Source: a virus. Taken from it: a stretch of DNA of 37,884 nt. The translations under genes were made by a program, and so were the position numbers. The stretch lies in IMG/VR virus record IMGVR_UViG_3300037475_000024, positions 1 to 37,884 of that record. One strand, written 5' to 3'. The notes under the pieces are model-generated. The model was not told the origin of the DNA. It was given only the letters and a program-made list of their open reading frames with translations, and ran no database searches. Positions 13,355 to 16,915 of this stretch are shown here, piece after piece (the stretch's first letter is position 1; every line of letters begins with the position of its first letter).

Positions 13355-13519
13355 ATGAGCAATTGGCATACCGTGTTAGTCGATGATTGGGAAGTGAGAG
13401 ACGAAATTACATGGGAGCGAAAACATTTCGACACGTTTGAGCTTGCAGAAAAAGCCAGAATGGAATGGCAGGACAAGGAACCGAGCCATTACATTAGTAT
13501 CGCCGCGGTTCTCGAATGA
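13355..13519 (+). CDS. 54-residue hypothetical protein before the non-coding RNA region
   Basis: The ORF (MSNWHTVLVDDWEVRDEITWERKHFD...YISIAAVLE) is acidic and aromatic. Its coding quality is similar to its neighbours. A GGGGAATTC stretch precedes the ATG as a weak ribosome site. It is the last protein gene before a 780-nt gene-free interval. Confidence 0.5.
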   Translation: MSNWHTVLVDDWEVRDEITWERKHFDTFELAEKARMEWQDKEPSHYISIAAVLE

Positions 13520-13610
13520 TTTATAGGAGCAGCGAGAAAGCATGCATATCTCAGCGTGAGGCGGAAGTTACCGACGCCAAGCAAGAGCGCAATACTTCGC
13601 ATGCCGCGTT

Positions 13611-13639
13611 CCCGGTGCGCGTAATCACCGGGGCCATGA
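13611..13639 (+). ncRNA. Unit 1 opening hairpin plus GCCATGA
   Basis: 7-bp stem CCCGGTG/CACCGGG with loop CGCGTAAT, then GCCATGA (13633-13639). The next helix TGAGTTTGC/GCAAACTCA (13641-13649 with 13716-13724) closes a multi-hairpin domain just inside the GCCAT/ATGGC pairing. Confidence 0.6.
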
Positions 13640-13863
13640 ATGAGTTTGCTTTTTGAATCTGAACTGGCGGGAATCCCGGGTTTCAGCAATTGCCCGCTCA
13701 ACGACCAAGAGAAAGGCAAACTCACTGATGGCGAACGCCCGGGCTGATGGGCTAAGAGTTGGGCGGGTACGCGCTACGGCGCCGAAACGAACTGAAAGCC
13801 AGCGGTTAATCCCGCGAGAAGCTGGCAACAAGCCCGAGATCAGCGCGGGCCGCCATCACCTAA

Positions 13864-13893
13864 CCTGCGTCGGGTAAGAGCGCAGGGCCATGA
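13864..13893 (+). ncRNA. Unit 2 opening hairpin plus GCCATGA
   Basis: 6-bp stem CCTGCG/CGCAGG with an 11-nt loop TCGGGTAAGAG, then GCCATGA. The flank TAACC before the stem is shared with unit 3. Confidence 0.6.
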
Positions 13894-13895
13894 CA

Positions 13896-14001
13896 AGAGC
13901 GGTAGCTCAGTTAGTAGAGCGTAGCGAAGATCAGGCCTCTGAGGGTGCACCTCAAGCCCACATAAGTAGCTAAGGCCGCTGGTGCAATTCCGGCCCGCTC
14001 C
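13896..14001 (+). ncRNA. tRNA-like element with canonical acceptor and D arms but no recognisable anticodon arm
   Basis: GAGCGG (13897-13902) pairs with CCGCTC (13995-14000). T8-A9 equivalents and a standard D arm GCTC-AGTTAGTA-GAGC (13905-13920) follow. The T-arm position holds GCTGG-TGCAATT-CCGGC (13978-13994), where the loop has G instead of the usual second T. Between D and T arms there are 57 nt instead of about 22, with TAGC/GCTA and GAGG-GTGCA-CCTC pairings. No CCA follows. It looks like a tRNA remodelled as a structural part. Confidence 0.6.
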
Positions 14002-14004
14002 TGT

Positions 14005-14077
14005 GATGGCGAATCAAAAAGATTGGGAACATTAGGTACGTACCATGCTTTTCGTGAAGTGATTACACGACGCCATC
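14005..14077 (+). ncRNA. 73-nt cloverleaf-like element with non-tRNA loops
   Basis: GATGGCG (14005-14011) pairs with CGCCATC (14071-14077). AATC-AAAAA-GATT (14012-14024) follows in the D-arm place. CAT..GGT-ACGT-ACC-ATG (14030-14047) is in the anticodon-arm place. TCGTG-AAGTGATTA-CACGA (14052-14070) is in the T-arm place. The total length equals a tRNA, but none of the conserved tRNA bases are present. Confidence 0.5.
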
Positions 14078-14084
14078 ACGTTAA

Positions 14085-14114
14085 CCTCCGCCGCGATAGT
14101 GCGGAGGGCCATGA
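14085..14114 (+). ncRNA. Unit 3 opening hairpin plus GCCATGA
   Basis: 7-bp stem CCTCCGC/GCGGAGG with loop CGCGATAGT, then GCCATGA. The loop resembles that of unit 1 (CGCGTAAT). ACACTC/GAGTGT (14146-14164) and TCGG/CCGA (14165-14178) hairpins lie in the following domain. Confidence 0.6.
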
Positions 14115-14196
14115 AGGAAGTCTTTTAGTTGGATGCTAACCACATACACTCAGCCAGTGAGTGTTCGGCGGTCACCGACGGCTAGAGGGCTTCGCT

Positions 14197-14279
14197 TGAT
14201 GGCGCAGCACTGTGGGAAGGGCACCAGGAGGTCACTCGGGTAAAGCGCATGTAGGTTCGAATCCTACCGCCATCGACCA
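14197..14279 (+). ncRNA. 3' tRNA-like element with canonical T arm and ACCA end
   Basis: GATGGCG (14198-14204) pairs with CGCCATC (14268-14274); an extra T-G pair (14197, 14275) would give 8 bp, leaving A then CCA at 14276-14279. The T arm GTAGG-TTCGAAT-CCTAC (14251-14267) is fully canonical. The 46 nt between do not fold into a standard D arm plus anticodon arm by eye. It may be a tRNA mimic or processing signal at the 3' end of the large RNA, or an odd tRNA. Confidence 0.55.
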
Positions 14280-14300
14280 AACAATGGAGGAAGTAAAGGA

Positions 14301-14519
14301 ATGACAGCCAAATGGATCAGACTAAGGGAATGGGTTAAAGCCACATTCGGCGATGACCCTCCGCACATCAATACGATTCGCAACTGGATTCGTGATGGGA
14401 AGATTAGCCCGCCACCAAAGAAACACGGTAGAGATTACTACTTTCGCCCTGATGCGGAATACGTCGATACGACGCATACAAAACCAAGCTTGTTGACGCG
14501 TATTGGTAGGGCGGCGTAA
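14301..14519 (+). CDS. xis: Excisionase (lambda Xis-like)
   Basis: The 72-residue product equals lambda Xis in length and has the same core: TIRNWIRDGKISPPPKKHGRDYYF here against TVRRWVRECRIFPPPVKDGREYLF in lambda (both shown in parts of the alignment by eye). It is a winged-helix DNA-bending protein that directs integrase to excise. GGAGGAAGTAAAGG precedes the ATG. The stop overlaps the integrase start (TAATGG), so the two are coupled, again as in lambda. It begins 20 nt after the ACCA of the structured RNA. Confidence 0.9.
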   Translation: MTAKWIRLREWVKATFGDDPPHINTIRNWIRDGKISPPPKKHGRDYYFRPDAEYVDTTHTKPSLLTRIGRAA

Positions 14520-15613
14520 TGGCTCCGAGAAAGCGCAGCTTCGCCAAGCGCGACTTGCCGGCCAATCTCTATGAGAACGATGGCTATTACAGCTGGAAAG
14601 ATCCTCGCACCGGGAAACATTACGGCATCGGTCGCGACAAGAAAGCCGCCATACGACAAGCCAACGAAGCGAATTTTGCGATCAACGGTGAACTGGAAAA
14701 GGCTCGACTGGTTGACAGAATCAACGGCGACGCCGAACGCACCTTCGAGAATTTCATCCCAATTTATGAGGCGGAGCTAGACAAGAGAGAGCTCGCGGAA
14801 ACTACGCTAAGGTGGAGAAAGCAACGCCTCCATAAGGTCAAAGCGGAGCTCGGTTCATGTGTCCTTGCCAGAGTATCCACACTTCAAATTTCCGCGATTC
14901 TCGATGCCATAGAGGCAGAAGGGAAGGCGAGGATGGCGCAGGTATACCGATCAGAGTTGCACGACTTTTTCCGCTCCGCCGAGGCCAAGGGTTGGATTGA
15001 TAAAAACCCGGTCACCGTTACCAAAGCCGCCGACGCGAAGGTAAAGCGCGAGCGGCTTACCCTAGAGGCATTCACCGCAATCTATGCCAAGGCGCTTGAA
15101 ATGGAGCCTTGGGTAGCGAATAGCATCGCCCTAGGATTGGTGACGGCGCAGCGCCGGGAGGATATCTCGAAGATGCAGTTCTCCGACATCCAGGATGGGT
15201 TTCTGTATGTGGAGCCAGGCAAGACCGAAAAAACTACCGGAATAAAAATACGCATCCCGGTAAAACTGAAGCTCGAAGCCTTGGGCTGGACCTTGGAAAG
15301 CATCGTGAAACAATGTCGCCAAGGAATCCTCGGGAATTACATGGTAAGGAATGACAAGAATCACGCCAAAGCCAAGGCCGGTAAACCCCTCCATGTCAGC
15401 AGCCTATCAGCCGGATTTGCTGAGGCGCGCAAGGCTACCGGTTTAAAGTTCATCGGGACCCCGCCAAGCTTCCACGAATTGCGGTCCCTGGCAAAGCGCC
15501 TTTACGACGAACAGGGAATTGATACGAAGACGCTTCTTGGACACAAAACCGAGCAAATGGCTAGCCTTTACGGCGATGTTCGCGGGGCGGAGTGGCTAGA
15601 GGTGAAGGTATGA
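14519..15613 (+). CDS. int: Tyrosine integrase, lambda Int family
   Basis: The 364-residue product (lambda Int 356) has the lambda arm-binding domain at 1-55 (RDLPANLYENDGYYSWKDPR, TGKHYGIGRDKKAAI). A SAM-like core-binding domain spans about 70-175, followed by the catalytic domain. Catalytic residues seen: R212 or R213 (TAQRRED), K238 (EKTTGIKI), H319-x-x-R322 (FHELRSLAKRLY), H342 (LLGHKTEQM) and Y351 (ASLYGDV). All are present, so it should be active. It would recombine attP (16330-16379) with the 3' end of a host tRNA-Pro gene. Confidence 0.96.
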   Translation: MAPRKRSFAKRDLPANLYENDGYYSWKDPRTGKHYGIGRDKKAAIRQANEANFAINGELEKARLVDRINGDAERTFENFIPIYEAELDKRELAETTLRWRKQRLHKVKAELGSCVLARVSTLQISAILDAIEAEGKARMAQVYRSELHDFFRSAEAKGWIDKNPVTVTKAADAKVKRERLTLEAFTAIYAKALEMEPWVANSIALGLVTAQRREDISKMQFSDIQDGFLYVEPGKTEKTTGIKIRIPVKLKLEALGWTLESIVKQCRQGILGNYMVRNDKNHAKAKAGKPLHVSSLSAGFAEARKATGLKFIGTPPSFHELRSLAKRLYDEQGIDTKTLLGHKTEQMASLYGDVRGAEWLEVKV

Positions 15614-16328: not shown

Positions 16329-16379
<51 letters not shown>

Positions 16380-16539
16380 GAGAAGGAATTGCCATTTTTG
16401 CATATAATACAATTACTTAACGTGGAAATTGGGGTGTCTCTGATACTACTAAAACCCACAATTACGACCTAATAAAATCAGGCTCTTACATGCTTATATT
16501 GGAATTCGATTTTCGCCCATTCATGCCGAGGATTAATCA

Positions 16540-16836
16540 ATGAAGGTGCAAGATTTATCCGGCGCGGAACTGGATTATTGGGTTGCGAAGGCAACCGGAA
16601 TGCTGCGCTCAATGTCGGGAAAAAGGGAATTTAGGCTTGGGGAATTTAGCCCTTCGACTGAATGGCAACATGGCGGCCCGATCATCGAGCGGAAGAAAAT
16701 TTCACTCGATTATTACAGCGATAGCGGTAGATGGTGTGAGAACAATAGCTTTTTTGCTGAAACCCCACTAACCGCCGCCATGCGTGCGTTCGTTGCAAGT
16801 AAGTTCGGGGAGGAAGTAGACGCCCAAGCGACCTAG
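16540..16836 (+). CDS. DUF2591 / NinX-like phage protein
   Basis: The 98-residue product begins MKVQDLSGAELDYWVAKATGM, the typical start of DUF2591 proteins (P22 NinX type). Further matches: FSPSTEWQHGGPIIERKKISLDYY and PLTAAMRAFVASKFGEEV. Function is unknown even in model phages. It lies outside attP, on the other side from the early operon, and has no obvious coupled neighbour. It therefore probably has its own promoter and sits at a prophage end. TATAAT at about 16401 is a possible -10 without a good -35. Confidence 0.82.
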   Translation: MKVQDLSGAELDYWVAKATGMLRSMSGKREFRLGEFSPSTEWQHGGPIIERKKISLDYYSDSGRWCENNSFFAETPLTAAMRAFVASKFGEEVDAQAT

Positions 16837-16915
16837 ATTGAAGATTATCAATCAAGCCACCATACGGTAACGGTTCGTATCGCCTGGGCTAGGTGAGAGA
16901 AGATTAGCATAAATA

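Follow-up and report, generated by a model that had tools for sequence, protein, structure and literature searches.

What fills the stretch between a 54-aa ORF and the excisionase gene of this temperate phage, where no convincing gene can be found? The window, by which we mean the whole 37,884-base temperate-phage record analysed here (IMG/VR IMGVR_UViG_3300037475_000024, full length), carries on its + strand the early genes for YqaJ exonuclease, NinB and HNH, then the 54-aa ORF, the gene-free interval, xis and integrase. The original prediction placed in that interval, at 13538-14280, a large structured non-coding RNA of three repeating units inside an early operon. Our analysis supports this: the ORFs within 13538-14280 have no match in PHROG, and we regard the interval as almost certainly a conserved tRNA-like phage RNA.

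Repeat architecture of the interval

The RNA and its flanking genes comprise the following features, each with the evidence on which it rests.

13355-13519, + strand: 54-aa ORF, left flank of the RNA interval
13538-13610, + strand: 5' leader segment with GCATGC ... GCATGC arms and GAAGT...ACTTC (sequence, MFE fold)
13611-13632, + strand: hairpin 1, CCCGGTG/CACCGGG, abutting GCCATGA (sequence, shuffles)
13633-13732, + strand: unit 1 domain 1, long helix GCCAT-GAATGAGTTTGC ... GCAAACTCACTG-ATGGC (inverted repeat I1, 86% over 21 nt)
13722-13862, + strand: unit 1 domain 2, kissing-loop tRNA-like module (models R2, R1)
13864-13886, + strand: hairpin 2, CCTGCG/CGCAGG (sequence; its loop CGGGTAAGAG recurs in the relative L153)
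13887-14010, + strand: unit 2 domain 1, tRNA-like cloverleaf (RF00005 39.3 bits, fold z -3.0)
14005-14077, + strand: unit 2 domain 2, GATGGCG/CGCCATC outer stem with abutting hairpins AATC-GATT and TCGTG/CACGA (sequence)
14085-14107, + strand: hairpin 3, CCTCCGC/GCGGAGG (sequence, repeat D1)
14108-14203, + strand: unit 3 domain 1, closed by GCCAT/ATGGC (sequence, MFE helix)
14198-14279, + strand: unit 3 domain 2, tRNA-like, with acceptor GATGGCG/CGCCATC, canonical T-arm and GACCA end (RF00005 27.7 bits)
14301-14519, + strand: xis, directly 3' of the RNA, with its RBS at the RNA 3' edge (Pfam Exc 2.6e-15)
14519-15613, + strand: lambda-type tyrosine integrase (Pfam PF09003, PF00589)

The three units, predicted as hairpin-GCCATGA...GATGGCG...CGCCATC, can be read directly in the sequence, with GCCATGA at 13633, 13887 and 14108, GATGGCG at 13727, 14005 and 14198, and CGCCATC at 13851, 14071 and 14268. 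As had also been noticed, the stems of the three hairpins differ from one another yet pair perfectly, each lying immediately 5' of GCCATGA; only 1 of 1000 dinucleotide shuffles produced a 7-mer that occurs three times, each time directly beside a perfect stem of at least 6 bp. The long internal helix TGAGTTTGC/GCAAACTCA is present as inverted repeat I1. In every unit ATGGC has two possible partners, one GCCAT upstream of it and one downstream. For domain 1, a test of own against other helices was only moderately positive (mean paired bases 13.2 vs 10.9). The last unit closes as a tRNA-like domain, in which the T-arm GTAGG-TTCGAAT-CCTAC, the sole T-arm-like hairpin on the + strand across the whole window, is followed by CGCCATC-GACCA. 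Unit 2 domain 2 has a module-like layout, but its loops are not complementary.

For the full 781 nt the fold energy beats that of shuffled sequence (z -3.35), and it does so on the reverse strand too (z -3.25), so fold energy alone supports structure and does not give the strand. We assigned the + strand because of the tRNA-like domains, the module model and synteny. No terminator was found at the 3' end of the RNA in the window.

Comparison with known RNA families

The idea that this RNA is GOLLD or ROOL was not borne out. The Rfam models GOLLD, ROOL, OLE and HEARO gave no match at the gathering score over the window and none even at E<=10 over 13400-14400, where the permissive scan returned only tRNA, one human lncRNA (HOXA11-AS1, E 0.058) and one riboswitch (c-di-GMP-I-GGC), the last two judged chance matches. 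The only match above a curated cut-off in the whole window lies elsewhere than 13538-14280; it is DUF3800-IX RNA at 16818-16889 on the - strand, which exceeds its gathering score with 41.9 bits and sits in the interval to the right of the integrase. GOLLD is likewise large, structured, phage-borne and tRNA-linked, and ROOL is a large RNA of phages or prophages close to tRNA islands; both are multimeric cages held by intermolecular contacts (PMC12286853). The window RNA differs from ROOL in lacking a model match, and from GOLLD in lacking a sequence or model match; neither a fixed length nor a conserved 3' domain was seen. Linkage to phage tRNA genes is common to GOLLD, ROOL and the module family described below, as a shared trait and not as proof of membership.

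The two tRNA (RF00005) matches of the permissive scan lie on the + strand at 13896-14002 (39.3 bits) and 14198-14275 (27.7 bits), against a gathering score of 29. The better one has a 43-nt anticodon region instead of a normal 7-nt anticodon loop, and the domain around it, 13887-14010, has an extended acceptor (GCCAU.ACA.GAGCGG/CCGCUC.UGU.AUGGC) and a greatly expanded anticodon arm. By itself, 14198-14279 folds no better than shuffles (z -0.21), and neither the default-filter Rfam scan nor ARAGORN lists a tRNA in the RNA interval. The likeness to tRNA lies in the module layout, the T-arms, the two tRNA-scoring domains of the window and the real tRNAs that take chain places in relatives; the window RNA differs in having no normal-size anticodon arm, in the silence of ARAGORN, and in complementary loops that stand in for the usual D/T contacts. 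A tRNA-like domain is also found in bacterial Y RNAs (YrlA, RF02553). The one YrlA match, in the P1-like phage JL22, is at chance level (E 0.34) and lies over a real tRNA pair; homology is unsupported.

A module shared by many phages

Blastn of the whole RNA against phages and plasmids either found nothing or matched mainly the T-arms of tRNA regions. Baiting with the phrog_10048 protein brought up the first homologue, in the relative L153, whose RNA is collinear with that of the window and weakly similar to it (nhmmer E 0.0075) but occupies a different slot; the central part of the L153 RNA matched unannotated spots of Klebsiella and Hafnia phages. Among IMG/VR baits, the integrase yielded no relatives and the portal yielded sister phages. 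The copies share a common order, namely outer stem, AAT, hairpin 1, variable stretch, hairpin 2 and outer stem, with hairpins GCGC-AGGCUGAU-GCGC and GCCGG-AGAUCAGCA-CCGGC and a variable stretch that mostly ranges from some tens of nt up to ~115 nt. In the window, 13722-13862 has this layout, with outer stem TGATGGCG/CGCCATCA, hairpins GCCC-GGGCTGAT-GGGC and GCCCG-AGATCAGCG-CGGGC, and a variable middle. Model R2, for which 102 CM-aligned copies were used and the window sequence was left out, detects it at 53.3 bits (E 2.9e-12), the next best match in the window scoring 9.3 bits; R1, which includes the window, gives 73.2 bits. Units 2 and 3 of the window are not matched by the module model.

The helices of the module covary. 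In a 36-sequence alignment including the window, 95.2% of cells are paired vs 83.5% when shuffled, 14 of 24 pairs are changed on both sides, and the observed score was reached in 0 of 500 shuffles; when the alignment is slid by one column, about 30% remain paired. For the 102 copies from which the window is excluded, 94.3% of cells are paired, with two-sided changes at 12 of 18 pairs, again with 0 of 500 shuffles. Most copies were fetched by the exact letters of the hairpin loops, so in those only the outer stem was free to vary. Copies reached by other routes (L164, L166, L185, L226, L344, L353, L356 and the window) do show concerted changes in the hairpin stems, the first hairpin of the module occurring as GCGC/GCGC, GCCC/GGGC, GCGA/TCGC, GCAC/GTGC, GCGT/ACGC and GCGG/CCGC. 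The two module loops are complementary (GCUGAU/AUCAGC; in the window, GGGCUGAU / AGAUCAGCG). This pair is nearly invariant across copies, so the proposed kissing rests on complementarity and on one compensatory change, GAGCUAA/UUAGCUC in L012, a sister phage with a 57%-identical portal. An IMG/VR scan for the kissing-loop variant GCTAA/TTAGC found none, and in the MFE fold of the window the two loops are paired inside one continuous helix and not as two hairpins.

Compared by architecture, the module plan is that of a tRNA, and the tRNA model does not recognise it. Just inside the 5' stem side, at the D-arm position, stands a 4-bp hairpin whose 8-nt loop contains GG; a 5-bp hairpin abuts the 3' acceptor strand, at the T-arm position; the acceptor-like stem has 7-9 bp, and the hypervariable middle takes the place of the anticodon arm. 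By the same analogy, the complementary loops may be a strengthened form of the D-loop/T-loop contact. The predicted tRNA linkage, of the kind seen with GOLLD and ROOL, was confirmed by measurement: among the matches listed, tRNA genes lie within 800 nt of 14 of 120 loci vs 4.3+/-1.7 under random placement (0/2000), and all 23 of 23 tRNAs beside modules are on the module strand. T-arm-like hairpins outside tRNA genes, on the module strand, occur at 0.076/kb near modules vs 0.004/kb far from them (~19x). Modules and tRNAs share one interval in Kp4882-1, P1-like JL22, ZC08 and P01.

Searching IMG/VR with a pattern of both loops placed the module on at least 120 contigs, with one to many copies per phage. 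A 126-nt Klebsiella version matched about 157 phage records, and a 256-nt version matched 1081 of 5426 E. coli genomes in whole or in part, a count that takes in partial matches such as lambda-type domain 1 alone. Present, mostly without annotation, in well over a hundred other phages, and in part in lambda, the module appears to mark a phage RNA that is widespread and has largely been overlooked. We trusted genomic R1 matches only if they were stronger than ~29-35 bits and showed both hairpins. Matches in that score range in two genomes (L354, L361) are coding DNA, because GCGCAGGCTGATGCGC encodes Ala-Gln-Ala-Asp-Ala; the L362 match is a false positive in a CRISPR array (CRISPR-DR4 repeats every 60 nt). 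The window's own DNA pattern GCCATCAC...GGGCCATGA gave only coding or chance matches among those checked, and this motif looks private to the window. An Actinomycetota sample gave 0 of 296, which says little with few candidates scored per genome.

Several well-known phages carry the module or part of it. Lambda has, between tR' and S at about 44,787-44,960 (L355:1488-1660), the domain-1 sequence ACAACAGGTAAGAGCATTG...TGCTCTTTCCGTTGT, close to the Klebsiella version (95% for an identical J53 prophage copy); in its late leader, the outer stem GTTGTGCTG/CAGCACAAC follows domain 1 and the kissing hairpins are absent. HK620 has at least 2 units between tR' and the late terminator tQ, and in JL22 some 1.1 kb accommodates tRNA-Asn, tRNA-Thr and three modules. 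In Klebsiella phage P01, a 4.8-kb interval without annotated proteins (33783-38573; L371 784-5574) holds modules, an annotated STnc100 and four tRNAs. The comparable interval of the related phage Magnus is filled with tiny predicted ORFs, which may be spurious.

STnc100 (RF02076), a gammaproteobacterial prophage sRNA, is the only curated relative found. Its model scores 52.9 bits in the module-bearing interval of Magnus and 53.6 bits in that of P01, above the cut-off of 47; it reaches 34-35 bits in two relatives and overlaps the third JL22 module, a divergent R1/R2 copy, at 34.4 bits. The window, HK620 and most of the module records tested gave no STnc100 match. Like the module, STnc100 has an outer stem and abutting hairpins, and in P01 and Magnus it shares a gene-poor interval with canonical modules; it differs in being modelled as a single 206-nt sRNA and in loops that are not GCUGAU/AUCAGC. 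The suggestion of a new class largely held: homologues in many phages keep the helices with covariation, but the class is not wholly unknown, because a divergent enterobacterial member is already in Rfam. Beyond the STnc100/PasD work, no description of the family turned up in the open-access papers searched, and with subscription papers largely outside this scope the novelty is provisional.

Other signals lie near modules. A second conserved domain, approximately GAAGCGGCGGCGTGGA...CCCGCTTC and with a T-arm-like hairpin of its own, stands 5' of the module in L236, L287, L153 and L012. At L338:1912-1980 (+), beginning 11 nt past a module, anti-hemB reaches a sub-threshold 41.6 bits (cut-off 49.5), and by its position this Burkholderia sRNA family may be part of the module chain. 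Sub-threshold matches to isrJ (31.1 bits, L349:2994-3058, -) and isrK (29.9 bits, L360:1177-1265, -) also lie close to modules.

What the RNA may do

The explanation we prefer, with a probability of about 0.45 for the whole, is a single non-coding RNA of ~740 nt, a chain of tRNA-like domains with hairpins between them, which would be co-transcribed with the xis-int operon, would probably be cut at the tRNA-like boundaries, and would act in trans as a tRNA mimic. Granted the conserved tRNA-like identity, this mimicry is a tentative proposal, somewhat short of an even chance. In its preferred version, the RNA would be a decoy or scaffold for tRNA-binding host factors, for example tRNA-targeting nucleases of phage defence, and the hypervariable arm would change under an arms race; the decoy version in particular we hold to be rather unlikely. 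The genes adjoining modules vary (Q/holin, repressor, antirepressor, terminase, helicase, spanin), which makes a trans-acting role likely and argues against a dedicated cis regulator. Taken together with middles that are unrelated in 84 of 121 modules among the matches listed, as expected from diversifying pressure or recombination, this favours a trans-acting tRNA mimic. Against the preferred explanation stand the near-invariant loop pair, the continuous MFE helix over the two loops, a module that escapes the tRNA model, window units 2 and 3 that escape the module model, and tRNAs nearby at only 14 of the 120 module loci among the matches listed. We found no defence system or protein partner linked to the RNA.

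The strongest rival, which we consider unlikely, is a self-assembling structural RNA like GOLLD or ROOL, whose complementary arms (GCCAT/ATGGC/GCCAT) and loop contacts would build a multimer enclosing tRNAs or other cargo. Length, phage origin and tRNA linkage are common to it and those cages (PMC12286853), and the two-way pairing of ATGGC in each window unit recurs in lambda as GCACAAC/GTTGTGC/GCACAAC; yet there is no sequence or Rfam relation to GOLLD/ROOL, and a module number of one to many per phage is unlike a fixed cage subunit.

Slightly less likely still is a precursor of base-pairing sRNAs such as STnc100 or PasD, from which modules would be excised with their hypervariable middles as mRNA seeds. 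STnc100 copies are expressed in EHEC, one of them confirmed by Northern blot (PMC5331693), PasD has been reported as an STnc100 relative (PMC13192938), and STnc100 overlaps the divergent JL22 module. However, a terminator is absent at the 3' end of the window RNA, the conserved part is a folded core and not a single-stranded seed, and middles unrelated between phages leave no room for conserved targets.

Control of the downstream xis-int genes in cis, by a leader or by an antitermination element like the put RNA of HK022, is improbable. The RNA does lie immediately 5' of xis here, and between tR' and S in lambda-like phages, but elsewhere the downstream genes are widely different and often not co-directional, and in ZC08, P01 and JL22 modules lie inside tRNA arrays. 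A decayed tRNA array, in which remnants of phage tRNA genes are kept by drift, would fit the tRNA-like scores of the window and the tRNA genes in homologous chains, but it is disfavoured by module covariation and very improbable, since genes in decay would lose their pairing, whereas the best-conserved module shows covariation of its outer stems and hairpins.

Returning to the tRNA-mimic chain, its boldest form is an unrecognised giant modular class of phage RNA, made of tRNA-like chains with swappable hypervariable arms and with real tRNA genes as links, ranging from the partial form in the lambda late leader by way of P1-like phages to 4.8-kb versions in lytic Klebsiella phages, and acting by tRNA mimicry in trans, for instance against phage defence that targets tRNAs; this we regard as doubtful. 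If true, an abundant structured RNA has gone largely unnoticed in textbook phages (partly lambda, a P1-like phage, HK620), and some portion of it occurs in roughly one complete E. coli genome in five. STnc100 would be explained as one link of a longer RNA, the long gene-free stretches that hold phage tRNAs would have a reason, and the role of a large tRNA-linked phage RNA would become testable in easy systems such as lambda, P1 and a BASEL phage.

Beside the integrase, 16333-16382 on the minus strand holds the 3' half of a tRNA-Pro(GGG), partly common to Paraburkholderia phage IPK (94.5%); judged from its sequence, this fragment is likely attP. In the relative L173, a tRNA-Pro(GGG) adjoins the integrase.
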